Source: Undaria pinnatifida
Lineage: Eukaryota > Sar > Phaeophyceae > Laminariales > Alariaceae
Reading direction: 5' to 3'
Assembly: GCA_012845835.1 (NCBI GenBank)
Contig: JABAKD010000026.1
Coordinates: 8,790,558 to 8,854,557, forward strand
DNA: 64,000 nucleotides
Positions 20,106-45,116 of the stretch are shown in pieces. Under the pieces are notes generated by a model. That model did not search any database and was not told the DNA's origin. It saw only the letters and a list, made by a program, of their open reading frames with translations. The position numbers were made by a program, and so were the translations under genes. Numbering within the stretch: the first letter of the stretch is position 1; each line of letters starts with the position of its first letter.

Positions 20106-20670
20106 TTGCAGCTGAGTGCGCTCTGGCTTAGTGCTTGCTGTGCGTTGCCCATGCCACGGGTGCTGTTCGTACGATGGTGGTGCTGGCTCGTGCTCTCGAG
20201 CATAGCTCTATACCACGTAGATACATTTTCCTTAGTCCCCTTTTCATCGGGTATTAGCGGGCCCATTAGAAGCAGGCACACCCCCGCACGTCACTCGTAC
20301 ACCCAGCAGCACACGCCAATACCACTGTACCGTCCACATGGCCTTGGGAAGAGGCTATCGCCAGCCGCCCACGAGCCAGCCGCAGCAGACACGACGCTGG
20401 CAACAAGAGGTGACACCCTCGAGATCGACATCAAGCCAGCGACCTACTTTGGTTTGCGCGCGGTGTCGAGGTTGTTGGTGGAGGAGTTTTACGGGATCGG
20501 GCTCTGGTTTCCGGCTCAGCGCCTCGTTGAGCTGAACCGGCTGCAGGACAACTTCCACTCGTACGAGGAGGACGCTGACCGACACTTGATGCTGGTTGCC
20601 ACTACGGTCGAGGACGGTAGCCTCGTGGGGTTTGTGGACATCGACGGGAGGGAGAAGAATCCTGGACAAA
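20106..20670 (+). CDS. GNAT-family N-acetyltransferase, exon 1
   Basis: This is the first half of a GCN5-related N-acetyltransferase (acetyl-CoA-dependent transfer to an amine; substrate unknown). The start could be 20106 or the second Met at 20151. After it come a hydrophobic Trp/Leu/Val leader (about residues 16-40) and a Ser/Pro/Ala-rich, basic linker to about residue 105, as in an organelle-targeted protein; the plastid is possible but no clean A-x-A-F motif is seen. The fold begins near DTLEIDIKPATYFGLRAVSR and continues through LMLVATTVEDGSLVGFVDID, the usual strands and helices 1-2 before the acetyl-CoA loop. The reading ends at CAAA before a consensus GTGAGT donor, phase 1. Frame remains open past the donor but the sequence loses GNAT character. 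The second half is 17.7 kb downstream at 38348-38646. Joined length is about 287 residues. Confidence 0.85.
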
Positions 20671-21649
20671 GTGAGTTGAAGTGGTCATACAAGCGTCCCG
20701 GAAATAACGTTCAAGTAGGATTCAGACTACACGAGAGTATGGCTGTACCTGCGTTACCTATATGGACATAAATATAGATACCGTTATGTAATTAATATGA
20801 ATAAAAATGGTATTTATGTTTAAGTCCGAAAGGGTACACGATGCAGCACGCGACCATCGTAAGAGGATACCTGTTACCTGGTTATTCACGGCAGAATAAC
20901 GCCTCAACGGATACCGTCAGGAGTCACGACGTCAAGGGCATCCGGTCGCTTTTGGTTTTGGACCGCGATGTTGATGTCTATGCGTACAAGTTGGAGGTGT
21001 TCAGAAAGCTCCACAAGCAGCACGTTGCCTGCAACTGAAGTTTAGGGTGGGTCCAGGGTCCAGTCTGATGCATTTACCGGGGAGTATGTTGCCTCACGGA
21101 TCCGAGCCTATAGCTTACCAGGTACGCAAGATGATACTCGCAACTTGAGGATATTAATTCTGTGCTGCACTCCAATTTTACAACTTGATGTTGATACTCT
21201 TCCAGTAGTCTATACCAGGTACCTGACATATTGAACCCGACACCTCGTACTTGTAACGGTACTATAGATGGTTGTTACGGTGTACTCCAGCGAGTCTCGG
21301 TTGTTGATCGGCATCTGGAGGCGAGGGGGGGGGGGGGGCTCAGCTCGATCAATCGCGCCTGCTCCCGTTGCTTCCTTTCTGCAATGTTTGCCTCCACCTG
21401 GCTAATGTGATGCAGTCAGGGTCAACTTCCTGAACAAACTTTTTATTTAAAAGCGGCACGCGCGTAGAAAGATTCAAATATCTGGCACGCGCTTTTAACT
21501 TTGCACACCTCGGACAGATCATGATTAAATAGATCATATAGATCATATAGATCATATACATAATATATTACTATATGCCCTCACCACCCGCACCTAGACC
21601 TATTAATAGCATGTATAGTAAAGTTCCTCCCAGGTATCATTCATGCGAC

Positions 21650-22270
21650 CGAAAGGGGTTTGATCCCCCCCCCCATCGCCCCCCCCCCCGTTTGGTTCTC
21701 TCCCGCCGCCCCACCAAAAATTAAAATCTGCGAAAGTAGTAAGCACTACGTACCAGACAGTTGATATCACCTCATTACCTTTCTAGCCATCCATGCCGTA
21801 GTTCCAATTCATACCCCCCCCCCCCGCTAACGCCCCCTCCTTCCCCACCACCCCCACCATCGCTTAGCACCACGCTTATAACAAGCTCCTAACAGATATA
21901 CATTTATGCGACCTAAAGCTGTTGGAAATCCCCCTCCCCCCCCCCCCTCCCCCTCCTTTCGAACACTCCGCCCTCTCCTCACCGGTTGTACGACTTACAG
22001 GATATACATGGTAAACTGATGCATTCCTTCCACAACCGTCAGGTTTGTCCCCTTGAAGGAATTATAGTTTCCGCGCACAGATTAAGTTGCCCCCCCCCCC
22101 CCGCTCCCTCTTGTTCAAACCCCGACCCCCCCGCCCTTAAAATCTCCGCCCTCCCCTCACCGGTTGTACGGCTTACAGGATGCACTTGATAAACTGATGC
22201 ATTTCCTTCCACAGCTGTCAGATTTTGTCCCCCTCAAAAACGGGTTTTATTGTTTCCGCGCACAGACTCA
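21650..22270 (+). repeat. Poly-C-punctuated tandem repeat, about 190-bp unit
   Basis: Units share CACCGGTTGTACG-CTTACAGGAT, AAACTGATGCATT-CCTTCCACA, GTTTCCGCGCACAGA and runs of 10-15 C. Two units are clear (21975-22265) and one or two degenerate ones precede them. Confidence 0.6.
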
Positions 22271-22765
22271 TTAACATCACCCTGTTGACTCTGGTATAAG
22301 CTACACTGTAGTTCCAAGGGGAGTCGCCGACCTATATCCTTAATGAGGACACACACCCAGTAATACACACAGCTTGCAAAGATGAGTTTCGACGAAATCT
22401 TCGATCCCACAGCTGGAGTGTATTTTTATGTTTATAATATAAATTGGTCTAGGGTGGCCGATACGAGCAGCCCAAGCGGGCTCGCTTTCACAGGGCCTTT
22501 TGGCCCTACTAGATTCTTGCTTGTAACTTCTTGGCCTGAGTAGCTTCTTTCATTCCTTGCCGCTGTCGCTTTCACAGACTTATTGGCCCAACTAGCGACT
22601 AGCTTCTTGCCTTTAACTTCTTGGCCCGACTACGAGTTTCTTTCATGTTTTGCTGCTGCATGCAGGCCAAAATGTCTCGCTTTTACCTCCCGCAGACGTA
22701 GCACCGCCACAACGCCACAAAAGCAACACCAACCCCTTTAGGAACCACCAACTCTGCCTGAAGTC

Positions 22766-22924
22766 ATGAACACCGAATCCAAGATCAACACCAACACAAA
22801 ACGTTCCAAGGCTAACGCAACGAGGGGCAAGCGGGCTGCTGCCTCAAACGCTGCTGCTGGTCGTAGTGCCGCCGCAACTATTGCTGCTCTGTGTGCAACT
22901 CTACTACTACTGCTGTCTATCTGA
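22766..22924 (+). CDS. Possible 52-residue peptide with a hydrophobic C-terminus
   Basis: ATG at 22766 starts a short frame with a polar Lys/Asn/Thr/Arg-rich N-terminal half (MNTESKINTNTKRSK), an Ala-rich middle and a Leu-rich tail (ALCATLLLLLSI) before TGA. The arrangement resembles a tail-anchored microprotein, but Leu and Ala runs here come from CTG/GCT-type repeats. It may be noise inside the GNAT intron. Confidence 0.15.
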   Translation: MNTESKINTNTKRSKANATRGKRAAASNAAAGRSAAATIAALCATLLLLLSI

Positions 22925-23395
22925 TGCGCTGATGTGGTCTACGTGTGGTGCTTATTATGTATCTACATGGGGCCCCCCAAAAATGCCGGTGCTCTTGCGT
23001 GGGTATGCGTGTGTTTTTTGTTCAACGCACAACAGCATCACATAGTAGTGCCAGTATATGTGCCAGCGCTATTCAGGACACCGGCACTATTGGAATAGAG
23101 TTGTCATTCATAGCTACCTACGTGCAGAGAGTGCAAGTCGTGCCACGTGATTCTACCAGCACTATACAGAGCAAAGGCATTATTCAACCGGCTCTATAAT
23201 AGCCCGTTCCTTGCCAGCAATGAATATCAGCGAAAAACGCTTATATATCTGTGGTCCAGATGCCTTCACGCAAGAAAATCAACAACATATTTAGCACAGC
23301 GCAAGACAGCGTCATAACAGAAAGAAAGCAAGAGCATGGGGGAAGCGGGGAAATGGTCCTCCTGCTCTGCTCTACTCTGCCGGTGTTGCTGCTGG

Positions 23396-23440
23396 TGCTC
23401 GTCCTGCTGCTGCTGCTGCTGCTGCTCTTGCTCTGTTGCT
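23396..23440. repeat. CTG microsatellite
   Basis: Imperfect (CTG)n giving a poly-Leu reading. Confidence 0.85.
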
Positions 23441-23939
23441 GCACGGTGTGTCTGTAACTGACATAATACGTTTATTTTTTTGCGGTGCACGTGTGTGTGT
23501 TTTCTCGCGTATCAAGACAGCATCACATGGTATTGCCGGTATGTGCCAGCCCGATGTTATACCGGCACTCGTCGAGACGCCACCACTACTTTTAAAGTAG
23601 GGCTGCCATGCATTTGTGAATTGTTTCTATAAAGAGTTCCAGTCCTGCTACTTTCGCCGGCATTATAGAGATCAGTGGCACTGTTCAACCGGCACTAATG
23701 GGAGTCCCCCACTACACCAGCTGTTTACCACCTAACAAGCACTTGGGGCTGGATTTCTGCACATAAATAAGCATGATATTCTTACTTACCTGGTGCGTAT
23801 GACTGAAAACATTATTATGGGCCTGTTTTTTACTTGATTCAGTATACCGGTTTATCCCCGCCAGTCTGCGCTGGTTCTTCCAAAAACCGACGAGGATTGT
23901 TCGCTGCTACTTGCTCCTGCTGCTGATGATGATATTATC

Positions 23940-24152
23940 CAGGGATTTTCACGGGTCAGGTCAGTTCTAGCGGGCCGGGTCGGGTCAGGGTGATCCGGCC
24001 CGACCTGACCCAACCCGTGAGACTTCCAAAGCCTCCCGGCCCGAACCGAACCGTCCCGTGAAACCTCCCGACCCGACCCGACTCGACCCGCGAGAGTCTA
24101 GGAACTTAATGACCCGGCGCGCGGGTCGGCTCATGACCCGTGAAAAGCCCTG
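23940..24152. mobile_element. hAT-type MITE rich in GACCCG, copy 1 (213 bp)
   Basis: The termini are inverted: CAGGGATTTTCACGGGTCA on the left, TGACCCGTGAAAAGCCCTG on the right. The flanks ATATTATC (23932-23939) and ATATTTTC (24153-24160) match at 7 of 8 positions, giving an 8-bp target duplication as expected for hAT. The interior is a run of degenerate (GACCCG)n and its inverse. Related copies are at 45117-45308 and 58778-58960. Confidence 0.75.
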
Positions 24153-25069
24153 ATATTTTCACTGTTTGCTTGTTATTTTTTTCGCGTTTCTTTCTCCGCC
24201 ATTTGAAGGTATGCGCTGCGGCCACAAAAAAAGTGATAGGTTGTTGCGCTGTTATTTTATTATTGTTTTCTCTCTTACTAGCTATGCTACTCCCACGACA
24301 TTTATTTCTAGGCTATTTTCGTCAGTCTTGATAGAGCCGTCTGCCCCCACTCCACCTTCCCCTACTATTACTACATGTTTGTCTACTTTTTCTTATACTG
24401 GTACAACTTTGATTAGTAACAGTTTTTTGGGGCCCGGGTTTTTTTGCCTCAAATGAAGCACATGTAACCACTGCAGTAAAATATTGGTGTAGGAGCCCGA
24501 CACTACCTATTAATATATACTAAACCTACTCGTCGTGTTTGTACAACAATAATAATCGTCCACTCACTACAGCAACCAACTGCTCTCTTCATGTCTTTTC
24601 TCGCGTCACCCTCTTTTGGTCTGCTCGCCTCGCCTCTCGTATTGTCTCCTTACTTTCGACTTTGCCGTTCCCTGCTATTGCTATTGCTATTGCATACGTT
24701 TGTTTATGTTTTAGTAGTTCTTGGGTTCCACGCTCACTTTTATTCTGCCTTCGTAGCATTTCTGCCTCCTTTTATATATTTTCACCTCCGAAGGGGGAAC
24801 TTGTAGAAAATGCAAGGGCTCTGCTCCGCGGGCGGCAGACGCCGCCCGCTACGCTCGCGCCAGGTATACAACACAACCAAATGTGAAAGAGACAGGAATA
24901 AAAGGTGCATGATTTCATGAAGCCCGCGACTTGATAATGCCAAGAGCTCTATGGGGAGAGCTGTTTACTCTGTGCTGTGTCGCGAGCTTGCTGGCGATGT
25001 CACGTTCAGATTGGCAGTACGGGCGAATACGACAAAAAAAGACATTTATTATTCAGAACGGGTGTATGA

Positions 25070-25950
25070 TAGCGCATCATCACCAGCTGCTTGTGGTAGA
25101 GCACCAAATACGAACGCAAGATGACATTGTGGTTGTACACCGTAATATTTTTACTTACATCTATGGAACTAGCTATGGAGAGCGACAACAAAAGCGAAAT
25201 CGTAGTGCATCACCACGGCCTGCTATTGGTCGGACGCAGAATACGAATGCAAAACGTAGTCGTATAACGTAGACGCTTAACTTGCATCTATCATATTAAG
25301 GCTTATATTAAGCTATACGGTTTATGCGCGTGGGGCGTATAAATAGACACTACTTGCAGTATATGGAAAACGAACCCGACTACCCAGTGCACATTGGACA
25401 TGCACGTGACTCTACAACTTGATTGTACTTGGGGCGCCCAAAAATAACCAGCTGCTAGCTTACTGGCGTTTATTTATGGGCGTGGGTCGTATAAATAGAT
25501 ACTACTTGCAGTAGACGGAAAATGCATCCGTGGCTGTACTGCTTGCCATGAAGTAACGCGCTTGGGGCGCTAAAAAAGAGCCAGGTGCATGTGGTAGGGC
25601 ACCAAATACGAATGCAAGACGCGGGTGTACATCGCAAGCTTTTACGGTACATCTACGATACTACTAGACATCTATTAGCATGCGCACGGGGTTCAAAAGG
25701 ATACACCTAGCTATCAAGACTGAAACAAATGCGAAATCGTAGTGCATCACCACGGCATGCTTATGGTAGGACACAGAATACGAATGCAAAACGTAGTCGT
25801 ATACCGTAGACGCCTAACTTACACCTATCGTATTATACTATACTTCTGGACTACTTGCAGTATACGGAAAAGGCATCTGAGCACCCGGTGCACATTGGAC
25901 ATGCACGGGGCTGTACTACCTGCCATGAAGTAACGCGCTTGACTTCCAGA
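25070..25950 (+). repeat. Divergent tandem duplication, about 540-bp period
   Basis: The block GCGAAATCGTAGTGCATCAC, then AATACGAATGCAAAACGTAGTCG and CTACTTGCAGTATA, then GTGCACATTGGACATGCACG occurs near 25190-25405 and again near 25728-25905. A partial copy lies between (25495-25640). No coding potential. Confidence 0.65.
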
Positions 25951-26159
25951 AAAACATCTGTAACTATGAATACGAGCAAGTAGTCGAATTGGAACACTGT
26001 GACAACAACACTACATCGAAAAACAAAAACCCTTCCAACGAAGGTTGATCATACTGTGCCTATTTTATGCACAAACTTCCACGACACGCAATTATCACAA
26101 AACAATCTGTCACAATCTGCAATATGAAAGTCAAAGGACTGCATCTAAAGGTTATAAAT

Positions 26160-26690
26160 AGCCCACAATGTGACGGAATACTAACATGAAGCAAGCACCT
26201 GACCAATATATGATGCAACTCGCTACGGCTCAGTGTTGGCGCGAAGTGACACTACGTACAAACACCAACATCGACGGTACAAAGCAGACCACGATGTGAG
26301 GGCATTCAAACACGAAGCAACTACCTAACCAACATGTGATGCAACTCGTTGGCGCGAAATAACATAGACACACGATACGAAGAAACACAAACGTCGACGT
26401 TACGAAACAGCCCACGATGCGAGGGAATACAAACATGCAGCAAAATACCTGACCACCATATGACGCAACTCGCTACGGCTCTGTATTGGCGCGAAATTGC
26501 ATATATATACACACGTTACGCTACGAACAAACTCAAACACCACGGTACGAAACAGCCCACGATGTGAGGGAATACAATCATGCACCAAACTACCTGACCA
26601 ACATATGATGCAACTTGCTATGGCTCTGTATTGGCGGGAAATAACATAGACATACGTTATGTACAAACTCGAGACTACAAAGTTGCACGA
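26160..26690 (+). repeat. Four-unit tandem repeat, about 125-bp unit
   Basis: Units begin near 26184, 26308, 26428 and 26576 and share CCTGACCAACATATGATGCA, GGCTCTGTATTGGCGCGAAA, GGTACGAAACAGCCCACGAT and GTGAGGGAATACAA. The array lies about 0.5 kb beyond the helicase stop codon of the minus-strand Helitron, where the 3' end of that element is expected. Confidence 0.75.
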
Positions 26691-27230
26691 CACACAACAA
26701 CAAAAATCTACCTGCGACGACCTGCAGGGAAAAATATAAAATGTTGAGTTTCACATACTTTTTGGTGTGCAACAGGTTCACAAACTCCGATGATAGGAAA
26801 TAACCCACGGCCTGCGGGAAACAAAGATGCAACCCAGTAGCAACGTTAGGGCTTGCCGTTCCTGTACAACGGCAACGGTAATTTATGTACCAATTTCTAC
26901 GATACGCAACATACAAAATGATTTGAGATGCCTTGGCAAACATGCCTCCATGCACTACGGCATCATAAAAAAGGGCGAAGACGAATGGGCGGAAATCCAA
27001 TCACACGTCTTCTGCTAGGGCGGGGAAGTTGCTTCCCGGCCCTTAGCTTGATGGAAAAACTTGCTTGTAGAAGCAAATATTTTGTCGTCTTGACGGCGGA
27101 GGTCGTAGCGATGTGTAGATGGCCACATGCGCGGGTTGGAAACACCTATACAATGCTGAAAGAAGGGCGAAAGTTGAAATACGTGAAAACAGAGGTGACA
27201 CAAAGGAGACGTGGTAAAGACGGTCAGGTT

Positions 27231-29843
27231 TTATGCGTTATAACGTAGTGAATCATAGTGCGAGAAAGAGGGGTAGTACAGAACATTGCAGATGTTATGG
27301 GTTGGACATGCAGGGTATAACTGGCCGTGCTGGCTGTGAATGGTTACCGAAATGTCGATGTTGTAGACAAACTGTGCAGCTACCATTTCAAGGTACCCGG
27401 CATAGGTCTGAGGGTTCGACATGAGCCGAAGGTATTGCTCGACAGAGTTATATGGTGTTGGTTGGGTGCCAAGAGCTTGTACCGGTTCGGTGTGTATGCC
27501 AGCAGAAATTGCCAGTAGGAAAGAAAAGCCGGTATTGGGCAGTTCGTCGTGCAGGTGTTGTGTAATATATTGTACGATGTTGGTGCGAATAATATTGTGC
27601 TGTTCAGGATTCCCCAGGACTTTGCGTGAAATGCATCGGAGGAGGCAAGCTCCATCACCGATTTCGTTTATAATGGTCCAGTTGTGACTACCCGATGGCG
27701 GAGGTGGTGGTGGAAGAGGAGGAGGTAGGTAGCCTGGAGGCGGTATAGGTGGAGACGAAGGGCGAGAAGGGAGAGGCGGGATGGTGATGCCTGTGGGAGC
27801 TTGGATGAAGGGTGAGTACACGACGTTAGGAGCATGGGGTATGCCGTCGGCAATGTGTGAGGCAGGCAGGAGGCACAAAACCAAACGGCTAAGGGCGACG
27901 TATAATTGTCCATGGGCGAATATATCGTTTCGCAAATCGAGTCCTATGCGAGACAGGGTTTGCCCTTGGGATTTGTTTATTGTAAGAGAGTAGGCGAGGC
28001 GGAGAGGGAACTGGACACGACTAAATTTTATTCCTTGTCGACCAATTTTCGCGTGAAAGTTGATTCGTGGCACGAGGACAATGGGCCGACGCTCGGTGAG
28101 GAGCTGTACTTGAAGGACACGAGAATTGGGTGAAACCCCCAGCAAAACGCCTTTCTGGCCATTGACGAGACCTTCTCCAAAGTTCAAGTTCCTGGTGAGC
28201 ATGGCGAGATCGTTCGAGCGAAGCTTCAGTTCGTGGGAAGGAACTCCCTGTGCGTTAAGAAGGTTAAGGTGCTCAGGGGCTGCAAACGCGGTGTTTGGAT
28301 TGGACTCATCACTGATAAGGTTGTCCGAGCTGAAGAACGTGGAGGCATTGTCAGAGCGCCTTCGGGCGATGTCTTCATTAGAGGTATCGATGGCGTGGTT
28401 GGTAGTAGCCAAGATAGCGCGGTCATGCATGAGTTGTGTCTCTTCGTTTAAGTCTGGGTACACAAATTTGACGAGGTCTTCAAAATCAGTGGTGCACTTA
28501 AGCACGAAGTGGTCAGTGGTTGAGTTGTCATCGGCGTTAGAGAGGGCAACCATGTCGCCGTTGGGCATATGAACGATAGGCTGCCTGTTCTCTCCCACGG
28601 TGCGCACGAAGCTGGCATACTGTTCGTCGTCTTTATCACGTTGCGAGGCAGTAAGTCTCAAACGGGTAATATGTGGCCAGAGAAAGCTGGAGATGACGGC
28701 GGCTTCGACGGTGTCAGATGCGGAACCATATTTAACAACAGGGCCAACTTGCCTCCAGTCCCCACTAAACAAAATCGTTTTACCTCCAAATAAGGTATCG
28801 TTATTGAGGAGGTCTTGCAAGGTTGTGTTCAGCGCTTCTACGCAATACTTGTGTGTCATGGGCAGCTCGTCCCATATGATAAGATCACAGTTGCGATTTA
28901 GTTCTGCGCGTTGTGATTCACCACGGATAGTGCACATTGCTCCTGGCACGACCTTTTCTTCAAGCGGCAAACCGAACATGGAGTGGGCTGTCCAGCCGCC
29001 TGGGAGTTGAAGGGCCGCAATGCCGGTCGAAGCTACCGTCAGAACGATTCGTCCATCCCCCCATAAACGGGCCGCTATAACCCTCTCGGTAAACGTTTTC
29101 CCGGTGCCTGCAGGGCTGTCAGCCATGTACGCACCCGGTTTGCCTAAGGTGACAGCTTCGATGACTGTAGAGTAGATGATTTTTTGCTCTCGAGTCAGAA
29201 GGACTTCGTTACAGTCGGCGTACGCTGTTTGTTCGACACGGTCAAAGGAATTCCTTGTCCGTTGAAGTTCAGTCTGTTGGTGGATAGCGGGTGGAAGGTT
29301 AACTTGTTCGTTATCTTTTCCGTGCAGCTGTAGTTTCAGATCGATCTCGTGCAATGCTTGTGCTATGGCTTGGTTTCTTGTCATAGACATGCGCAGGTCC
29401 TTAATTAGGTCTTCTTGGAATTCGCGCCACAGCTTGGGAGCTGCCGCACCGTCTAGTATGAGCGTAACGAATAAGCCTCGGAGTAGATTTGCTGTTTGGA
29501 ACAAAACAGCTTCTTGCATACAAATGAAGTACTCTTGATCACCAGTGACGAGCCCTCGAGCCCGAGCGGCATCGTGAAAATTAGGATAAACAATGGCAGG
29601 TCCTACTGCGGGGTGAACAGTCCGCAGTTCCATGAAGCTTCTTGCTGGTATTTTGTAGAGGAGGAGTCGAAGGTAAAAAACATCGCCAACCGCAGGACTT
29701 TTGAAGTGAATGCGGCAGACATGGTCTGTAGTTCTGGTGGAAACAATGTTACCATACTGGTCGAGCCATTTACCTACAGGTGCGGAGGTTGGGACAGGGT
29801 CGTCTTTTTTTTTTTGCGACGATGTACTTTTTAAAGTAATCAA
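27231..29843 (-). CDS. Helitron PIF1-type helicase with C-terminal OTU domain
   Basis: True coding starts around 29810, after the homopolymer frameshift; the residues before that are out of frame. In order: the end of the Rep-helicase linker; Walker A ADSPAGTGKTF; GWTAHSMF; Walker B LIIWDELPM; FSGDWRQVGPV; RLTASQR; SLTINKSQGQT and GQLYVALSR (motifs V-VI), all typical of PIF1-like helicases. After a Pro-rich spacer (roughly 30 residues) comes an OTU-like domain with DGACLLRC (catalytic Asp/Cys region) and SFSHYDSLR (His) near the end. Helicase motifs are all present, so this part looks functional apart from its lost connection to Rep. About 249 bp of it (27957-28205) have been copied into the Rep part. 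Confidence 0.92.
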   Translation of the reverse strand: MITLKSTSSQKKKDDPVPTSAPVGKWLDQYGNIVSTRTTDHVCRIHFKSPAVGDVFYLRLLLYKIPARSFMELRTVHPAVGPAIVYPNFHDAARARGLVTGDQEYFICMQEAVLFQTANLLRGLFVTLILDGAAAPKLWREFQEDLIKDLRMSMTRNQAIAQALHEIDLKLQLHGKDNEQVNLPPAIHQQTELQRTRNSFDRVEQTAYADCNEVLLTREQKIIYSTVIEAVTLGKPGAYMADSPAGTGKTFTERVIAARLWGDGRIVLTVASTGIAALQLPGGWTAHSMFGLPLEEKVVPGAMCTIRGESQRAELNRNCDLIIWDELPMTHKYCVEALNTTLQDLLNNDTLFGGKTILFSGDWRQVGPVVKYGSASDTVEAAVISSFLWPHITRLRLTASQRDKDDEQYASFVRTVGENRQPIVHMPNGDMVALSNADDNSTTDHFVLKCTTDFEDLVKFVYPDLNEETQLMHDRAILATTNHAIDTSNEDIARRRSDNASTFFSSDNLISDESNPNTAFAAPEHLNLLNAQGVPSHELKLRSNDLAMLTRNLNFGEGLVNGQKGVLLGVSPNSRVLQVQLLTERRPIVLVPRINFHAKIGRQGIKFSRVQFPLRLAYSLTINKSQGQTLSRIGLDLRNDIFAHGQLYVALSRLVLCLLPASHIADGIPHAPNVVYSPFIQAPTGITIPPLPSRPSSPPIPPPGYLPPPLPPPPPPSGSHNWTIINEIGDGACLLRCISRKVLGNPEQHNIIRTNIVQYITQHLHDELPNTGFSFLLAISAGIHTEPVQALGTQPTPYNSVEQYLRLMSNPQTYAGYLEMVAAQFVYNIDISVTIHSQHGQLYPACPTHNICNVLYYPSFSHYDSLRYNA

Positions 29844-30462
29844 GCAAGGTCAGACCGTTAAAAGAGACCAAGTTAGGCCGTTTAAGATAATGCATAAGCT
29901 GCGAGGCGGAGTTGTTCGCGATAGCAGCGCGTTCTTCGGGGGATGCATCCGCAGGGTAAATTACGTTATTATCTTGCTCAAGGTGGGCGTGCACACGGGT
30001 GACTGAGGGATAACGGCTGTTGGTTTCAAAGCCTAGCATTTTCCAAGTAGCTTCTGATGCTGAAAGATATCGCGCAGTACGGTACATTTCTATTTCACTC
30101 TTAATCCCTGCGATTCTGGCTTTTGCGAAGTCGTTACCTTTCGAAATATATTTGTAGAGATATTTGGCGCATGATGCGGCGGTGACATCAGTACAAATGT
30201 AGCAATCTAGTAGAATAAGCAAGTACGGGTTGTAAGGGACCACCCATTGGTTGCCTACCGGTACATCCATCCAGGAATTGCCAATTTTGTTTCTTACCGA
30301 GGGATTGTCCCCATTTTTTGTTCTGCAGTATTCTGCCCGGCCGCTACGTTCGTTTAAGTGTAGCTGTAGTCCTAAAGGGTTGCGGGTAGAACTTATTGCA
30401 GGACTTCGTGTTTGTATCCCGGTTTGTTTGCATACATGGGGCGTTAACGTTGTGAGAACCAC
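29770..30462 (-). CDS. Helitron Rep domain, C-terminal part
   Basis: This carries the tyrosine motif of Helitron Rep, AKYLYKYISKG, with Tyr and Lys spaced as in YLxKYxxK of known elements. It is preceded by SWMDVPVGNQWVVPYNPYLL, the usual strand before it. It should follow directly on the upstream frame (…QPFRTTATL) but is shifted by one base near 30350, where this copy has one extra T in the run TTTAAG. Downstream it runs out of frame into the helicase at the poly-T tract 29802-29813. Both breaks are one-base homopolymer changes. Confidence 0.88.
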   Translation of the reverse strand: MVLTTLTPHVCKQTGIQTRSPAISSTRNPLGLQLHLNERSGRAEYCRTKNGDNPSVRNKIGNSWMDVPVGNQWVVPYNPYLLILLDCYICTDVTAASCAKYLYKYISKGNDFAKARIAGIKSEIEMYRTARYLSASEATWKMLGFETNSRYPSVTRVHAHLEQDNNVIYPADASPEERAAIANNSASQLMHYLKRPNLVSFNGLTLLDYFKKYIVAKKKRRPCPNLRTCR

Positions 30463-33400
30463 AAGGCTTATGTATCATATATTTTAGGACCATCTCACGC
30501 AGCTTGCCGCCAGCGATGGACGCATCGGGCAACTGCGCCCAGACCCATGAGTCCATTTGATTAAGCAAATCGGGACCTGCGTTTTTGAATTTGGCTATGG
30601 CATGGGTTTGCCCTTGGGATTTGTTTATTGTAAGAGAGTAGGCGAGGCGGAGAGGGAACTGGACACGACTAAATTTTATTCCTTGTCGACCAATTTTCGC
30701 GTGAAAGTTGATTCGTGGCACGAGGACAATGGGCCGACGCTCGGTGAGGAGCTGTACTTGAAGGACACGAGAATTGGGTGAAACCCCCAGCAAAACGCCT
30801 TTTTGGCCATTGACGAGACCTTCTCCAAAGTTCAAGTTCCTGGTGAGCATGGCGCTACGTTCGTTAAGTGTAGCTGTAGTCCTAAAGGGTTGCGGGTAGA
30901 ACTTATTGCAGGACTTCGTGTTTGTATCCCGGTTTGTTTGCATACATGGGGCGTTAACGTTGTGAGAACCACAAGGCTTATGTATCATATATTTTAGGAC
31001 CATCTCACGCAGCTTGCCGCCAGCGATGGACGCATCGGGCAACTGCGCCCAGACCCATGAGTCCATTTGATTAAGCAAATCGGGACCTGCGTTTTTGAAT
31101 TTGACTATGGCATGGGTTTGCCCTTGGGATTTGTTTATTGTAAGAGAGTAGGCGAGGCGGAGAGGGAACTGGACACGACTAAATTTTATTCCTTGTCGAC
31201 CAATTTTCGCGTGAAAGTTGATTCGTGGCACGAGGACAATGGGCCGACGCTCGGTGAGGAGCTGTACTTGAAGGACACGAGCATTGGGTGAAACCCCCAG
31301 CAAAACGCCTTTTTGGCCATTGACGAGACCTTCTCCAAAGTTCAAGTTCCTGGTGAGCATGGCGCTACGTTCGTTAAGTGTAGCTGTAGTCCTAAAGGGT
31401 TGCGGGTAGAACTTATTGCAGGACTTCGTGTTTGTATCCCGGTTTGTTTGCATACATGGGGCGTTAACGTTGTGAGAACCACAAGGCTTATGTATCATAT
31501 ATTTTAGGACCATCTCACGCAGCTTGCCGCCAGCGATGGACGCATCGGGCAACTGCGCCCAGACCCATGAGTCCATTTGATTAAGCAAATCGGGACCTGC
31601 GTTTTTGAATTTGGCTATGGCATGGGTTTGCCCTTGGGATTTGTTTATTGTAAGAGAGTAGGCGAGGCGGAGAGGGAACTGGACACGACTAAATTTTATT
31701 CCTTGTCGACCAATTTTCGCGTGAAAGTTGATTCGTGGCACGAGGACAATGGGCCGACGCTCGGTGAGGAGCTGTACTTGAAGGACACGAGAATTGGGTG
31801 AAACCCCCAGCAAAACGCCTTTTTGGCCATTGACGAGACCTTCTCCAAAGTTCAAGTTCCTGGTGAGCATGGCGCTACGTTCGTTAAGTGTAGCTGTAGT
31901 CCTAAAGGGTTGCGGGTAGAACTTATTGCAGGACTTCGTGTTTGTATCCCGGTTTGTTTGCATACATGGGGCGTTAACGTTGTGAGAACCACAAGGCTTA
32001 TGTATCATATATTTTAGGACCATCTCACGCAGCTTGCCGCCAGCGATGGACGCATCGGGCAACTGCGCCCAGACCCATGAGTCCATTTGATTAAGCAAAT
32101 CGGGACCTGCGTTTTTGAATTTGACTATGACATGGGCATGGGGAAAGCCTCGTTTTTGATACTCGATCACTGACATGTGAAAATCATACGGCCCAAAAAC
32201 TTTGCCACTTTTGAGGTGAGACATTGATACGGCAAGCTTTATCTTGAAAACTCTGCAGCAAAGATCTGGGCGGTCAGCAGCTTGTTGGCCTTGTAGGAGG
32301 TTCTGCACAATTTCAGGCCAGAGCGGGTTGCAAGTCATCGTTATCATGAGATGCGGTTTGCCTTTTCTGTTGACAACCGCAAGAGCATCTTCAGTGTCAT
32401 CTTTGCGCTTGGCAGGTGAACCATGAAATGAAACAGGAAGAAGTTGACCCGGCTTTTCTGCGCCGCTTGATTGCGAAATTGATCGCGCCGTGGCAAGTCG
32501 TTGCTGGAATGATTCAGATTGAAGGAACGTTAGCTTATTCTCTTCGCTCCGGGAAAGACTGTCTGTAACCCACTCCTGTGCTATGCGGCTATTCCTTTGG
32601 AACACACGCTCGGAAAGAATGCGTTGTCTGCCGTAGAAAGGGAGAGTCACATGGGCGTCGCCTGATATGTTCATGGTCCGAGACTTCTTCGGAGGATTTT
32701 CGTGGGCATTGCCAGGGCTCCAACCAGCTTCACCGTGCATAAAAAGTAGAGGATATTGTAGGCTTTCGTATGCCGGCGACCAAAGTGGGAGGAAACGGGG
32801 CAGGGAGTCCGGGCTATCTTTGGGGTATGTGACCACACTTCGCTTGTTGACGTCTTGTACACCTGAAGTGTAAACTATAGCCGCGATTTCTGGGCCGGAT
32901 ACTTCTTGTCCGAGGATATTACCATCGTTGACTCTGCTAGCTTCCGCAAATGCAATAAACGCAGGTTCGGAACTAAAAGCGTTGGAGTTGATAATATTAT
33001 TGACAGCAGCACGATATTGCTTAGCCCATGAGACGTTTTCGTGTACGTGGTCGCGCAACGTTTTAGCGATACCAAGGTCGATACCTAGGTGTTGAGCCTG
33101 GTCTACAAACTCGGAATCGTAGATATAAAATCTTGCGCTATTGGAAACATTTGTGGTTTCGTATTTTTCTTGCAGGTCGAAGATGCGGTGATATGCTTTC
33201 CCGTGTAAAGTGAGCATGGACGGAGGAGCTGGATTAGTCCAAGTTTTAGTTTCACAACCGCCCGCGGCGAGCGCTGTGAATGAGAACAGGCCGTTATAAC
33301 TGCGTTGCGAACTGCTAAATGCTTTTGTATTGAAGAGACGCCAAATTTGATCGCTGACAGGCCGGAGGTGCGAAATTGCAGCGGCGCCGGACTTGCAACA

Positions 33401-33733
33401 ATTGAGGGATCTTTCTTCCCACCAAAGTTGAGATCTACAGTGCCGGCACGTGTAGTTGTTTGGGTCGCTCAAAATGGGGTACCGAAAATTAGAGGTTTCA
33501 GGAATGTGTAAATCAGGAGAGTTGAACGCGCAAACACCTAAGAGGGGCGTTGAAGGAGCAGGGGCGGCAAGGGATGATGATCCGCGTACATGACGCAACA
33601 GTGCTCTACGACGGCGAGCGATTTGACCGTTGTCGGGCGCACGCCTGCTTGCCAGGATGGCAGTGCGCAGGCTTCGGTGGAGACGTGCTCGTAGTCGAGT
33701 TTCAGTGTCATCGGTTGAATCCGACATATTCAT
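30344..33733 (-). CDS. Helitron Rep N-terminal part with in-frame chimeric repeats
   Basis: The ATG at 33733 begins a 1,129-codon frame. Around residue 93 is a zinc-type motif (YTCRHCRSQLWWEE, then CC). The HUH motif FPHAHVIV is at about residue 531 (32132-32155). From there the protein should continue into the Tyr motif, but it enters three copies of a 170-residue chimera. Each is about 85 residues of helicase (AMLTRNLNFGEGLVNGQKG to INKSQGQT) followed by about 85 residues of Rep (KFKNAGPDLLNQMD to FRTTATL). The frame stays open through all copies and ends out of frame after the fourth Rep segment. Confidence 0.9.
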   Translation of the reverse strand: MNMSDSTDDTETRLRARLHRSLRTAILASRRAPDNGQIARRRRALLRHVRGSSSLAAPAPSTPLLGVCAFNSPDLHIPETSNFRYPILSDPNNYTCRHCRSQLWWEERSLNCCKSGAAAISHLRPVSDQIWRLFNTKAFSSSQRSYNGLFSFTALAAGGCETKTWTNPAPPSMLTLHGKAYHRIFDLQEKYETTNVSNSARFYIYDSEFVDQAQHLGIDLGIAKTLRDHVHENVSWAKQYRAAVNNIINSNAFSSEPAFIAFAEASRVNDGNILGQEVSGPEIAAIVYTSGVQDVNKRSVVTYPKDSPDSLPRFLPLWSPAYESLQYPLLFMHGEAGWSPGNAHENPPKKSRTMNISGDAHVTLPFYGRQRILSERVFQRNSRIAQEWVTDSLSRSEENKLTFLQSESFQQRLATARSISQSSGAEKPGQLLPVSFHGSPAKRKDDTEDALAVVNRKGKPHLMITMTCNPLWPEIVQNLLQGQQAADRPDLCCRVFKIKLAVSMSHLKSGKVFGPYDFHMSVIEYQKRGFPHAHVIVKFKNAGPDLLNQMDSWVWAQLPDASIAGGKLREMVLKYMIHKPCGSHNVNAPCMQTNRDTNTKSCNKFYPQPFRTTATLNERSAMLTRNLNFGEGLVNGQKGVLLGVSPNSRVLQVQLLTERRPIVLVPRINFHAKIGRQGIKFSRVQFPLRLAYSLTINKSQGQTHAIAKFKNAGPDLLNQMDSWVWAQLPDASIAGGKLREMVLKYMIHKPCGSHNVNAPCMQTNRDTNTKSCNKFYPQPFRTTATLNERSAMLTRNLNFGEGLVNGQKGVLLGVSPNARVLQVQLLTERRPIVLVPRINFHAKIGRQGIKFSRVQFPLRLAYSLTINKSQGQTHAIVKFKNAGPDLLNQMDSWVWAQLPDASIAGGKLREMVLKYMIHKPCGSHNVNAPCMQTNRDTNTKSCNKFYPQPFRTTATLNERSAMLTRNLNFGEGLVNGQKGVLLGVSPNSRVLQVQLLTERRPIVLVPRINFHAKIGRQGIKFSRVQFPLRLAYSLTINKSQGQTHAIAKFKNAGPDLLNQMDSWVWAQLPDASIAGGKLREMVLKYMIHKPCGSHNVNAPCMQTNRDTNTKSCNKFYPQPFRTTATLKRT
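30601..32130 (-). repeat. 3 x 510-bp tandem array inside the Helitron
   Basis: Units start at 30601, 31111 and 31621 with CATGGGTTTGCCC; the array is exactly 1,530 bp. Each unit joins a segment matching the helicase (27957-28205) to one matching Rep (30344-30600). The copies differ from each other at only one or two bases (for example A/C at the base before TTGGGTG in 31281, and GGC/GAC before TATGG). All three share T where the native helicase has C (near 28154), so they descend from one fused molecule. Confidence 0.95.
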
Positions 33734-33822
33734 AGGTAGAGAGCAAATAGCTCAAAGGGGGCCTTTTGCCCGGTATATATATATATATATATCAGTAGTA
33801 AGGAAACGCAGAACGCTTACCT

Positions 33823-33936
33823 TCAGAAGTCGTCACCGAGGTCTGCGGGGATCCCTGCGCAGGCCTGCTTGGCCTCTTGCTCGGGGGAGGTTCCGAGGAG
33901 CTTGAACTCCAACTTCTTGGCGATGATGCGGTGCAG
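33823..33936 (-). CDS. Probable zinc-binding protein, exon 4 (C-terminus)
   Basis: After the acceptor GTGCACAG come 37 codons (LHRIIAKKLEFKLLGTSPEQ through ADLGDDF) and TGA. Incoming phase is 0, matching exon 3. Four bases after the stop is a perfect donor (AAG|GTAAGCG), so the 3' untranslated region is probably spliced, and the Helitron lies in or beyond that intron. The helix-like basic start (IIAKKLEFKLL) and Ala/Glu-rich end show no known domain. Confidence 0.6.
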   Translation of the reverse strand: MHRIIAKKLEFKLLGTSPEQEAKQACAGIPADLGDDF

Positions 33937-34139
33937 CTGTGCACGCGCGTTTCAAATACAGGGGCAGTGTAGCGGTGATTATTGTATCACATTATTAACA
34001 TCACTAGTGGTACTCCCGAAATATGCCAGTTGCCGGCCGGTATGGCGGACAAAAACAAATTGGTGCTGTATCCTCTGTATTAAGTACTAAAAGAACAAAA
34101 TAATAACAGGGCAGTACGACAATGCCGCCGTACGGGTTC

Positions 34140-34570
34140 ATCTCCCACAGGACGCAAAAAGACTCCCACGTACAGAACGGCCCACTAACCCACCACGGAC
34201 GACGCAGTGCACCCTCCACCCACCCACCGACCAAACCTTTACTACATACAGCAGAACAGCAGTGCAGCAGTTCGTCCATCAGAACAGCCGTGCAGCAGTA
34301 CGTACAGCAGTATACACCTGGTACGCGGGGCGCAGTTAGTTGGTTGGTTCTTATGAAACAGGAAACAGAAAAAAAGACTCCCACGTACAGAACGGCCCAC
34401 CCACCCACCACGGACGACGCAGTGCACCCTCCACCCACCCACCGACCAAACTTTTACTACATACAGGAGAACAGCAGTGCAGCAGTACGTACATCAGAAC
34501 AGCAGTGCAGCAGTACGTACATCAGAACAGCCGTGCAGCAGTACGTACAGCAGTACAGCAATACAGCAGT
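34140..34570 (+). repeat. Tandem duplication, about 225-bp unit
   Basis: AAAAAGACTCCCACGTACAG to CACCCACCGACCAAAC occurs twice (34155 and 34372), each followed by CAGCAGTACGTACA-type short repeats. It lies in the last coding intron of the minus-strand zinc-protein gene and holds open an unrelated plus-strand frame. Confidence 0.8.
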
Positions 34571-34798
34571 ACCTAAAGCAATACACCTGACAGGCGAGCA
34601 GCAGCCGATTCGTTGGTTACAATGCTCCCGGGCTGGGCGGGAGTCGCCTTTGTTAGGCCAAGCGAAAAGCGCTCGCGTTGCCGATTCTGCGCACGGCGAT
34701 CCAAGCTACAGAAAGACACAACAATGTATCATAGCGTAAATATATAATATGCGTAAATCATTTAAGTCTGTGGTTACAGCGTATATACGTATATGTAC

Positions 34799-34969
34799 CT
34801 CAATGTCAAAATCGCGCTTGGCGCAATGGTAGTGGAGCGCAGGGAGCTCCTCCAAGAGGTAGTCTCCGGATTTCTTGAGCAGCAGGTGCCCTTCCGCGAT
34901 GGTGCCAGTGCACTTCTGCTGAATGATGTTCCCCACCTGATCACCTCTCTCCGCGGCCTCGCAGACCTT
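34799..34969 (-). CDS. Probable zinc-binding protein, exon 3
   Basis: This is a clean 171-base exon (57 codons, phase 0 in and out), with acceptor GTCGTTTGCAG and donor GAG|GTACAT. It reads KVCEAAERGDQVGNIIQQKC, then a run ending LPALHYHCAKRDFDIE. Leu-rich helical parts alternate with charged residues, and C and H residues (KC, HYHC) could add metal ligands. GC-rich codons contrast with the AT-rich flanks. Not recognised. Confidence 0.65.
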
Positions 34970-35898
34970 CTGCAAACGACAACGTGATGCAACTACTGTC
35001 AGCTGTGCTTTTTGTGGGTTAGCAGTGCCGTACTGTAACAGCCGAAAACGTGAAGCAATCTAAGATCCCGCCCAGTTTGTCCACCCGAATACCTGATACC
35101 GTTCACCTACTCTCGTCTGCGCTTCTATGTGTACGGTGGTACCGGTAGTTTCAACGAAGGTGAGAATATGAAAATAAACCGTGTTTGGTATAATACGTAG
35201 GGTGGTTATACGTACGTACTGCTGTGTAGCATGAGAGTACTCGGTCTGCTGGATTGTAGGAGGGTTTTAGAGCCTGGATACGTACATCCTGCTGTATGTA
35301 GATGACTTGTAATTACAATGAATACTGTCTCTGGACAGACGAGCAGGTATCAAGCAAAGGGCTTCCAAGCCACCACGCCAAAAGTGTGGGGGGGTATTCA
35401 GGAGAGTGAGAGAATAAAACGGGCCGAAAAAAACAGAAAAGCAGCATGGTTCAGTTGTTCAGCCGAAAAAATATCTGCGGCTCTATTTTTCCAACCAAAA
35501 ATACCTGACACCCAACCTCCCGGGACAAACTTGGCTCCTTTGCTCTTACTCGACAGGCGGCCTACAACAGCAGATCGGAAAAACGAAAAAATAAACAGCA
35601 GGAACCCACCCGCCCTGTTGCATCATGAAAGTACCACGCCGCGCGTTTGTGATGTAAGCAGAAGCAGGTGCACAACACCCTCTCGTCTCGCGCGAGTATC
35701 ATACGTGAAAAATATTACTCCACAGCAGTCGCCGGCCTACAACAGTGTCAGAAGCCAGGAGTCGTACTCGGTCTACCGGACAACGAAGCGTCTTAGAGCC
35801 TGCGATGTACTCCGAACCACGGGAGAAAAAGGAAAAAAGAAACTCTGATTCAACATTAACATCAATAGAGCAAAAACGGAGTGCATTTTTTTACTCAC

Positions 35899-36002
35899 GC
35901 CAATCACGGGACTCCCCTCTGGGACGATCCACCCAAACTTGAGCTTCTCGCTGGTCCTGCTGCCCAGGCACTCCTTCCACACTGCGTGGTAGTTGTACCA
36001 CG
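35899..36002 (-). CDS. Probable zinc-binding protein, exon 2
   Basis: A 104-base exon between TTTTGTTGCAG and GGC|GTGAGT. With one base carried from exon 1 it reads P-WYNYHAVWKECLGSRT and SEKLKFGWIVPEGSPVIG, leaving phase 0. The aromatic-rich start and the GWIVPEG turn look like a folded domain. No family recognised. Confidence 0.65.
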
Positions 36003-36320
36003 CTGCAACAAAAAGGACAGCAGAAGCAAACGGCGTGTGAGTGTGATGATTTCAAGCACGCACACACATCACAACAACCGTAAGGTACGAAGCAGCCAAG
36101 CTGAACGCAGACACTCGAACAGAAACGTATTAATTAAATCACGCAGCGACGAACCGCAGAATGGGTGGAAAAGTGATGAACACCACTCACCAACCGGGCA
36201 TGCCTGCTAGACTGGCTTGGTGGCACACCGCGGGGATCAAACATCTAGAAAGGAAACACCGGCGCGGTCGCCACACGAAAACAAAAGCGGCGGAAGTAAT
36301 GCGAAGGAAATCCGACTCAC

Positions 36321-37029
36321 GTTTGGACGCCTTGTCGGGGCCGTCGTTTTCCACACCAATAGACGGGCTGTCAGCAGTGTCCCCTCCGCACCAGTCACAC
36401 TTTCGGGGGTTGTCGCCGGTGCCCCAGAACTTCTTGTTGAAATTGTAATACACCCCGCAGGTGTTACAATTTCAACAAGAAGTTCTGGGGAACCGGCGAC
36501 AGGTGCAGGCTGGACCGTGGTCGGCGGCGTTGCGGGCGTCAGAAACACGTACCCTTGCTCTGGCAAGCACTGCTGTGAGGGCACGGTCAACATCCGCAAC
36601 AGGCGGAATTCGGCTTTGCTCTTCGGTGTCTGCGACACCTGCGGGGTGTATTACAATTTCAACAAGAAGTTCTGGGGCACCGGCGACAACCCCCGAAAGT
36701 GTGACCCGCACCAGTCACACTTTCGGGGGTTGTCGCCGGTGCCCCAGAACTTCTTGTTGAAATTGTAATACACCCCGCAGGTGTCGCAGACACCGAAAAG
36801 CCGAATTCCGCCTGTTGCGGATGTTGACCGTGCCCTCACAGTGCTTGCCAGAGCAAGGGTACGTGTTTCTGACGCCCGCAACGCCGCCGACCACGGTCCA
36901 GCCTGCACCCCCACCCCCACCCCCACCACCGCCACCTGCAGAGCCTCCACCACCTCCCCCGCCTTGGCTTTGGTTGGTAGGCTTCGGCTTTTTAGCAGGA
37001 GAGCTACGATAGATGGTTGAAGACAACAT
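36321..37029 (-). CDS. Probable zinc-binding protein, exon 1 (scrambled)
   Basis: ATG at 37029 starts MLSSTIYRSSPAKKPKPT, a Gly-rich linker, then a Cys-rich module: CSGKHC, VCDTCG and KCDWCGG, spaced as a zinc ribbon or double zinc knuckle around the phrase NFNKKFWGTGDNP. The exon ends ASK plus one base before GTGAGT (36315-36320). Between 36466 and 36782 the assembly carries inverted extra copies of this same exon. Removing them (37029-36783 joined to 36465-36321) gives the expected module, but one frame error remains: the 36790-36830 copy lacks 5 bases that the inverted copy at 36610-36625 has (GCTTTGCTCTTCGG against GCTTTTCGG). With those 5 bases the exon is 397 bases, phase 1, exactly what exon 2 needs. 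The full protein would be about 261 residues. Confidence 0.6.
36428..36910. repeat. Nested inverted duplications within the exon
   Basis: Arms of about 38 bp (36428-36465 and 36466-36503) meet with no spacer. A second pair of about 200 bp (36504-36707 and 36712-36910) is separated by about 4 bases (GTGTGAC-CCGCACCA-GTCACAC). All arms are copies of one coding segment. The small indels between arms (3 and 5 bases) show that they are not exact mirror reads. Confidence 0.9.
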
Positions 37030-37875
37030 GCTGCTCGCTCTCCGAGTTTAAAAGTGGTGGGGAAGCGCTACGGCGACAGGTGGCCAGCGTAGGGAGCTGA
37101 AAGTAGGTGCCTACTCGTAGAACACTAAAAAGCCGGCAGTCAACTTCAACATCTCACGACTTTGCGCCGTAGATGCGTCGTAGAGTCGTAGATCATACGT
37201 TGGTAAAAACGAATTTTAACACCTGAAAGTCGATCAAAAACGAAGGAAATACCTGAAAGTCGTAGATCATACGTTGAATAAAGTTACGGAATGAAAAAAA
37301 TAAAAGAAAAACGGGAAACAAAGAAACGAAGAAAGCGAAGAAAGTAAGGAACTCGAAGAATGCCGGGAAGGTTTTCCAAGAGGGGGGTTTAGGCAGGCGT
37401 GTTCCAAGTGGGTGCGCTGAGAGCGAAGCAGGTCCCATTAACCAAGTGAAAAAGGTTTAAAGAATTTTCGAGGACAGATGTAATTATATCTATAGATAAT
37501 ATAGATAATATAGATATGTAGATAATCTACCACAATATACTAAATCCTATAGCTGCCGCTATGAGGTGTGCAGGATCTGTATGTACGTGAAGGACAGTTT
37601 CATGCCGGGAAACATGTACCAGGTACTAGATAATGCAGATCGCACGGCTCCCACCCGGCAACATCAGCTGGGCCATACAGATCTTCCTGAAGTATCTATA
37701 TCGTCATGTGGGGATCGATTATCTGTCCGACGGGTGTGACTTAAACGTTGTTACCGTTTGCTCGTAACTTTACGACTGTTGTATCCATGCTGTTTGGGGG
37801 ACAAACGTTATAGAGTGCTTTACGTAGATGGGTAGTGTACAGATTCGGTCATGGTTGGGGTCAAAACAGGTAATA

Positions 37876-37955
37876 ATATATATGAAAATACGTGGAAGTG
37901 TGGCGAGCTTGAGCTTTATTTTTCCCCATCCGCCGGAGGATGAAAAAAAAAAAAA
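37876..37955 (+). mobile_element. Poly-A-tailed retroposon, 5'-truncated copy
   Basis: Matches only the 3' part of the copies at 1886 and 2326 (ATGAAAATACGTGGAAGTGT, CCCCATCCGCCGGAGGATG) and ends in a 15-A run. 5' truncation with an A tail is typical of retroposition. Confidence 0.6.
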
Positions 37956-38347
37956 AAATGTCACAATCACGTCAATGCCACCATAGATGGACGAAAATGT
38001 AAGCGCCGGTGATGGTCCTCGCAGGACACCCCATCTCGTCAGTGTTCCATACTGTTCCATAGAGTATGATGTTGTCAGCCTTGTGTCAAGTCTAACCAGC
38101 GGGTCAAAGGAGAGATGAATGAGACACACCGTGAACCATGAGGAGAGCGCTTCCCATCACCGACAACCCTGCGTCCCCCTATGACAAAAAGTACTTGGAA
38201 ATGTTATTGGATTATTATTGTAGTACTCCTAGTAGGAGGGCTAACTCTCAGCTGCCTGCCCTCCCCCCCCCCCCCCCCCCCCCCCCAACCAACACACTTG
38301 TGCGTTCCTTGGAAACCCATGTTCCGCGCGCGCTTCTCCCTCCGCAG

Positions 38348-38646
38348 CGGGATGCCGACCTTATTTGTCGGACCTCGCCGTAGCAAATCGGTTCAAACGC
38401 AGGGGCGCCGGGACTGAGCTGGTGCGAGCTTGCGAGGAGGCGTGCTTGCGGTGGGGATTTGACTCGATGTATTTGAAGGTTCAGGCGGGAAACATTGCGG
38501 CCGAAAAGCTGTACGAGAACCTCGGCTACTACATTCACTCTCCCAAGGATTCGAAAAACGAGGTCATGCTATGCGTGAATCTTACAGCGCGAGCGGAGGC
38601 GGTGACGGCGGCGTCGGGCAATGTGGTCGTCGCTGAGGAAGGGTGA
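38348..38646 (+). CDS. GNAT-family N-acetyltransferase, exon 2 (acetyl-CoA-binding half)
   Basis: After the acceptor TCCCTCCGCAG this exon completes a Thr codon with exon 1 and reads GCRPYLSDLAVANRF then KRRGAGTELV, the conserved acetyl-CoA loop (a K-R-R-G-A-G form of R/Q-x-x-G-x-G/A). It continues through EEACLRWGFDSMYLKVQAGN and AAEKLYENLGYY, the N...LY..LGY signature of motif B, and ends with an Ala/Val-rich tail and TGA at 38644. On its own it lacks the first strands and helices of the fold; exon 1 supplies exactly those. A frame call starting at TTG inside this exon would be wrong. Confidence 0.87.
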
Positions 38647-44885: not shown

Positions 44886-45116
44886 CTGATGAAAATAACC
44901 CGTCGCAAACCGAATCGAGAGGAAATTAAACGAAACAAACGAACGTAAGCAGGTGTTGGGACAGCGAAGGGGGGGCATTGAGAGAAGGTGTCAACGGGTG
45001 GGTGCGGAGGCCTGGATGTTGTCGAGTATCGACATTATATCACGCGCCTACTAAACGGAAGCTATACTGCTGTTAACTTCTGCCGAATTGAGATGGACGG
45101 CTTGTCGAACAAAAAT

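Follow-up and report, generated by a model that had tools for sequence, protein, structure and literature searches.

Introns of brown algae can be rich in transposable elements (TEs). In Ectocarpus, nested and layered insertions are described in introns, and intact elements are rarest there (PMC12477816). Helitrons have been divided into several classes, whose definitions are taken here from PMC4067079 and PMC5148889. In maize, Mu killer consists of part of a transposon gene duplicated in inverted orientation, for which read-through from a flanking gene has been proposed (PMC3440606). The locus described here lies in a 64,000-nt stretch of the genome of the brown alga Undaria pinnatifida (contig JABAKD010000026.1, positions 8,790,558 to 8,854,557; C33:8790558-8854557 in our searches), hereafter the window. 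It contains the two halves of a GNAT acetyltransferase gene and, between them, 17.7 kb of DNA with a Helitron-like element. In all likelihood, this is one two-exon nuclear GNAT gene whose intron was enlarged by successive insertions, with a 12.7-kb element bringing in both a Rep/helicase/OTU gene and a zinc-ribbon gene. The locus resembles the Ectocarpus introns in being TE rich, with nested and layered insertions, but differs from them in that a single near-full-length element dominates. As a gene structure it would represent ordinary, though extreme, intron growth by transposons.

The genome searched comprised 511,146,479 bases in 68 contigs. Its probable source is a 511.28-Mb assembly with a guanine-plus-cytosine (GC) content of 50.14%, built from PacBio Sequel and Hi-C data with short-read correction (PMC7058681); the GC content of the window is near 50%. 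The window contains no run of N, indicating that no scaffold gap separates the two GNAT exons.

The intron is bounded by the donor GTGAGT, whose first base is 20671, and by the acceptor TTCTCCCTCCGCAG, whose last base is 38347. The frame opened by the ATG at 20151 reaches the donor in phase 1 at 20670 and runs on in exon 2 to give a protein of 272 amino acids, as expected from the original prediction that the two halves join in phase. With Pfam, family PF00583 matched the joined protein with 61.3 bits (cut-off, 20.7) over profile positions 24 to 116 of 116, exon 2 alone with 49.0 bits over positions 61 to 116, and exon 1 alone not at all. The curated cut-off is thus exceeded with both halves covered, only profile positions 1 to 23 remaining unmatched. 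In a trimmed construct, the real join scored 62.3 bits, compared with 48.4 to 53.1 bits for nine joins with a shuffled exon 1. Two of these shuffles (51.9 and 53.1 bits) also stretched the match into the N-terminal half, but all nine fell short of the real join by more than 9 bits. The protein shares with other GNAT acetyltransferases a near-complete domain match after exon joining; it differs from GNATs of solved structure, to which only weak matches were obtained (best, 28.9 bits).

A genome search with the joined protein returned three matches, namely, exon 1, exon 2, and a weak match on C38 (40% over query residues 155 to 224). Each GNAT half occurs once in the genome, on one strand. The weak paralogue on C38 crosses the junction in one open frame, with 27 of 74 aligned columns identical (tblastn). 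Before position 38340, just two open stretches on the plus strand that are 60 codons or longer reach a GTRAGT in phase 1, exon 1 being one and positions 148 to 562 the other. The GC content at third codon positions (GC3) is 0.699 in exon 1 and 0.690 in exon 2, and that of the intron as a whole is 0.490. The two exons very probably form a single GNAT gene interrupted by an intron of 17.7 kb, which would be spliced as drawn in Table 1. The leader of the protein starts with a hydrophobic segment, followed by a slightly basic stretch (seven K/R and two D/E in residues 26 to 86); a plastid address is our guess.

Dispersed repeats, counted from the genome match tables, account for 16,253 of the 17,677 intron bases. 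The pieces of the intron were matched against the genome, the part from 33.9 to 36.2 kb being covered through protein matches and a comparison with a copy of the element on C30 (L057). The match tables score the best candidates, and copy numbers and repeat cover are therefore lower bounds. Both the Helitron and the further repeats that had been predicted for the intron were recovered in these searches, and the Helitron-like element alone makes up 72% of the intron. Its nearest listed copies are 94 to 99% identical in the Rep/helicase part, compared with lower identities for the other repeats (Table 1). If divergence from relatives is used as a clock, and it is a rough one only, these differences suggest that the insertions took place one after another and that the Helitron-like element was the last to arrive. 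Successive mobile-element insertions would thus have enlarged the GNAT coding intron to 17.7 kb, and the 12.7-kb element would have inserted on the opposite strand, carrying in the Rep/helicase/OTU gene together with its own four-exon zinc-ribbon gene. This element is the largest of the insertions and apparently the youngest. The plus-strand end of repeat R2, GGAACTTGTAG, adjoins the 3' end of the Helitron-like element, and R2 may be a non-autonomous relative inserted in the opposite orientation.

An insertion of this size could instead have killed the GNAT gene, leaving exon 2 as a relic and giving exon 1 an end inside the intron through early polyadenylation or read-through. The exon 1 frame stays open for 33 residues beyond the donor, as such an ending would allow. 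In addition, introns are the compartment with the smallest share of intact TEs in Ectocarpus (PMC12477816), so that an almost complete element of 12.7 kb would be an unusual find in a functional intron. However, both exons have retained open frames, similar GC3 values, and consensus splice sites, and the more diverged repeats suggest that the intron was already several kilobases long. Loss of the gene by insertion is therefore considered improbable.

Table 1. Features of the locus, in window coordinates, as predicted from the sequence
Feature	Coordinates	Strand	Description
GNAT exon 1	20151..20670	+	N-terminal half of GNAT domain behind a hydrophobic leader; reaches donor in phase 1
Intron	20671..38347	+	17,677 bp, GTGAGT...CTCCCTCCGCAG; about 92% dispersed repeats
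Repeat R1	21579..22444		Near-full copies listed are 85-87% identical
Repeat R2	22432..24805		Matches at 22432-23939 (near-full copies listed, 76-88%) and 24150-24805
Helitron-like element	24810..37493	-	12,684 bp; 5' end at 37493 (ATAGATATAATTACAT...), 3' end near 24810
Rep/helicase/OTU gene	27231..33751	-	Three open frames here; one 1651-codon frame in L057
Three extra 510-nt tandem units	30354..31883	-	Rep piece and helicase piece, inside Rep frame
Accessory zinc-ribbon gene	33823..37029	-	Four exons: 37029-36321, 36002-35899, 34969-34799, 33936 to about 33823
Inverted duplication of zinc exon 1	36461..36705		Pairs with 36714-36909 as a strong hairpin
Older dispersed repeats	37491..38180		37491-37736 (74-78%), 37796-37881, 37958-38180 (74-81%)
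GNAT exon 2	38348..38646	+	Acetyl-CoA-binding half; stop codon ends at 38646

The Helitron-like element was delimited by comparison with its copies. At 14 distinct loci that were fetched, similarity runs through the non-coding flank of the zinc-ribbon gene toward the 5' end. It stops no more than 3 bases from 37493 at 11 of these loci, at 37488 and 37476 at one locus each, and at 37305 at the remaining one (C30:24.957 Mb). At the other side, a GC-rich hairpin followed by CCCTTG(T/C)AT is common to the copies near 24810. The zinc-gene region matches other places in the genome at up to 98% DNA identity, and at least 17 near-full matches to the zinc-ribbon gene were found at 16 loci. The 5' end, zinc-ribbon gene, Rep/helicase, and 3' end occur in constant order and orientation at C30:24.970, C29:3.673, C30:14.334, and C30:19.384 Mb. 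The zinc-ribbon gene and Rep/helicase occur at C30:16.512 and C30:24.957 Mb, and the zinc-ribbon gene with the 3' part, and no listed Rep/helicase coding match, at C27:18.312, C30:25.500, C13:3.031, and C30:18.707 Mb. In a diverged family, whose Rep/helicase is 75 to 80% identical at the nucleotide level, a zinc-ribbon gene of 52 to 54% amino acid identity lies close to Rep/helicase at four loci (C30:26.56, C61:8.60, C61:8.62, and C28:14.99 Mb). At C28:14.99 Mb there are two opposed zinc copies, of which the nearer has the other orientation. Contig C30 (27.5 Mb, about 5% of the genome) holds 12 of the 17 near-full zinc-gene matches listed, at 12 of the 16 loci. This suggests that C30 is a sink for the family and perhaps a low-recombination chromosome.

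Rep and a Pif1-type helicase in a single gene, the mark of a Helitron of any class, were found in the L057 copy, where one frame of 1651 codons (1650 amino acids) encodes Helitron_like_N, a PIF1 helicase, and a C-terminal OTU domain (2.3e-6; Pfam). The corresponding frames of the window gave 5.7e-37 for Helitron_like_N and 3.7e-54 for PIF1. The ends characteristic of canonical Helitron1 (5' TC and 3' CTRR) were not found in the aligned copies, which begin with ATAGATATAATT... and end with ...CCCTTG(T/C)AT. Helitron1 inserts between A and T and does not duplicate its target; here, an A precedes TAGATA in most copies with a fully aligned 5' end, but it may be the element's own. A 3' hairpin of the Helitron1 type is present about 18 nt from the end (GCGGGCGGC-GTCT-GCCGCCCGC).

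The element shares with the Helitron2/Helentron group the combination of Rep (Helitron_like_N) and Pif1 helicase, the OTU domain, the 3' hairpin, an accessory gene, and deleted derivatives that keep their ends. It differs from this group in its 3' end CCCTTG(T/C)AT, in its unclassified four-exon zinc-ribbon gene, and in three features that were looked for without success. No asymmetric terminal inverted repeat, as in Helitron2, was found by a simple test: in one copy and with simple scoring, the best local match was equalled in 203 of 500 shuffles. The apurinic/apyrimidinic (AP) endonuclease of Helentrons was absent from the 10 Pfam families matched by the L057 protein at E up to 10, a search whose filters can discard weak matches. 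RPA gave no Pfam match in the scanned proteins of the window and L057. Since in these tests the element matched none of the described classes in full, it is named Helitron-like only. Within limited literature searches, no element of this kind was found in print.

The zinc-ribbon gene had been described as a four-exon gene on the other strand, around which the intron had grown. The layout of that gene was confirmed, and the L057 copy likewise has four exons, encoding 260 residues. Its independence was not: it belongs to the Helitron-like element, and the window copy has a broken exon 1. It is neither low in copy number nor independent of mobile DNA, as a host gene would be expected to be. Because other loci have it enclosed by the same pair of ends, it would have arrived as the element's own cargo. 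The intron thus appears to have grown by transposon insertion, as had been suggested, but not around a nested host gene. The antisense overlap with the zinc-protein transcript that had been envisaged, and that might influence either gene, would be antisense to a transposon gene. The case illustrates that what looks like a nested gene in raw sequence may prove to be transposon cargo.

An early idea, that the zinc-ribbon gene belongs to a host gene family, was dropped because the copies have a 5' end in common and are linked to Rep/helicase. It is very improbable that the gene is an independent nested host gene that resembles genes captured by Helitrons. Helitrons do capture genes, the zinc-ribbon gene has introns, one of its exons appears to be selected, and a second multicopy group exists in which, at one locus, no Rep/helicase frame lies within the 7.5 kb read. 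In contrast, 13 of the 14 fetched loci share similarity that crosses the non-coding flank and reaches the same 5' end, and the gene lies near Rep/helicase in two diverged families. In addition, no single-copy host version was found among the 150 matches listed in the zinc-protein genome search, for which surroundings were examined at a few loci. About 90 of these 150 matches are relatives of the zinc-ribbon gene with 44 to 54% protein identity, many of them with equal scores. They suggest a second numerous family, to which L064 (C24:9013000-9020500) and others would belong and which perhaps spread recently.

Selection on zinc exon 1 was estimated over 76 to 77 codons by comparison with L057. 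The ratio of non-synonymous to synonymous substitution rates (dN/dS) was 0.09 to 0.36 in the 7 of 11 comparisons in which it was defined, with most values resting on one to three synonymous changes. More informative values were obtained for L022 (0.27; nine synonymous and nine non-synonymous changes) and L023 (0.36; 9 and 12 changes). For L064 the ratio was 0.24 (33.8 synonymous and 55.2 non-synonymous changes), at a dS of 1.66, which is near saturation. In the other four comparisons, L013 and L017 were unchanged, L014 differed by a single non-synonymous change, and L018 is the same locus. The zinc exon of L015 holds a stop codon. Together, the ratios point to purifying selection on the zinc exon, and the protein may serve transposition. 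That two diverged families keep this unclassified gene, apparently under selection, points to an undescribed transposition factor.

Database searches did not place the zinc protein securely in any family. In Pfam, no match was obtained below E = 2.7 for the intact copy or at E up to 1 for the window pieces, and no NCBIfam family was found at E up to 0.01. In a single-sequence search of the PDB, the best matches had E = 0.011 and 0.016. The first of these is a glycine-rich stretch. In the second (23cp_S), the cysteine pairs align, although the alignment is also mixed with the glycine-rich stretch. The partner region of 23cp_S presumably resembles a GATA-type finger, and a GATA-like finger in the zinc protein is an unproven lead. 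When a two-sequence profile without the glycine-rich part was searched against the PDB, the matches were to myoglobin only, at E = 0.95 and above. An RPA-like identity of the protein was also considered and found no support in Pfam, NCBIfam, or PDB sequence searches.

Several observations weigh against a single spliced GNAT gene with a cargo-bearing element in its intron. Two of the nine shuffled joins scored higher than exon 2 alone, by 2.9 and 4.1 bits, and part of the gain from joining can therefore be chance. The alignment with the C38 paralogue requires seven gap residues near the junction. An outside relative with an intact join was sought in bacterial and archaeal genomes, where none of 95 pattern matches was confirmed, and in plasmids, where there was none. 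No empty insertion site, with the flanks joined by script, was present among the fetched loci, a genome-wide search not having been made. The intron is also far longer than the autosomal median of Ectocarpus, 17.7 kb compared with 524 bp (PMC12477816). Finally, L064 has the zinc-ribbon gene without a Rep/helicase frame within the 7.5 kb read, and the gene may thus also travel without Rep/helicase.

The window copy of the element is broken. Relative to the L057 frame, its Rep/helicase frame is interrupted near 30.35 and 29.8 kb. These breaks are separate from the 510-nt tandem, which keeps the reading frame. In each 510-nt unit, a piece of Rep is fused to a piece of the helicase whose counterpart in L057 is located about 2.1 kb farther along, and the unit junctions have 2 to 3 nt of microhomology. 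The units look like the product of copying round a small circle or of an assembly fault. In zinc exon 1, the forward arm of the inverted duplication carries a 5-nt deletion that causes a frameshift, and the duplication itself consists of two distinguishable reverse stretches. Among the other loci for which the match tables give both flanking pieces, the tandem was absent at all 6 and the inverted duplication at all 16.

That the tandem units and the inverted duplication are assembly artefacts is possible but rather unlikely. The probable source assembly was built from PacBio Sequel reads with short-read correction (PMC7058681), and the rearranged parts are nearly identical, at 99 to 100% for the tandem units and 95 to 100% for the inverted arms. 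Against an artefact, the two arms differ by the 5-nt deletion, which puts them out of register by 5, and the junctions have microhomology of 2 to 3 nt. A missed adapter mirrors the whole insert and would not turn back after 245 nt. In addition, zinc exon 1 occurs as opposed arms elsewhere in the family. Such arms were found at C61:19611110-19611901, C13:2241128-2241672, C34:10376004-10376573, C28:14.99 Mb, and C61:8.61 Mb, the last two of which may be neighbouring elements. This suggests that the inverted duplication recurs in this Helitron family. Template switching during replication would explain the opposed arms and the rearrangements. A literature search on inverted duplication by template switching in Helitrons found no papers.

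Folded as RNA, the inverted duplication reached -518 kcal/mol, compared with a mean of -197 kcal/mol (standard deviation, 7.1) for shuffled sequences (z, -45), and none of 100 shuffles was as good. The window thus holds, like Mu killer, an inverted duplication that could fold into a hairpin RNA. If transcription runs through the element, the GNAT pre-mRNA would contain the hairpin. The locus resembles maize Mu killer in having an inverted duplication of a transposon gene where host transcription could yield hairpin RNA; it differs in length (about 200 bp here, compared with about 4 kb), in its intronic position, and in being possibly an artefact (PMC3440606). In Ectocarpus, small RNAs show a peak at 21 nt and are found on TEs, and there is only one Argonaute (PMC12477816). 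By analogy, and as a highly speculative proposal, the intronic hairpin of about 200 bp might be processed from the pre-mRNA into 21-nt RNAs that silence related Helitrons in trans, and the inverted duplications elsewhere might be further silencers that arose by template switching in rolling-circle replication. As the silencing pathways of this lineage are poorly known, the hairpin-forming rearrangement is of interest as a candidate transposon silencer.

Outside the GNAT locus, no Pfam family at E up to 1 was found for an open frame of 825 codons on the minus strand at 42448-44925, which is rich in Ala, Pro, and Ser.

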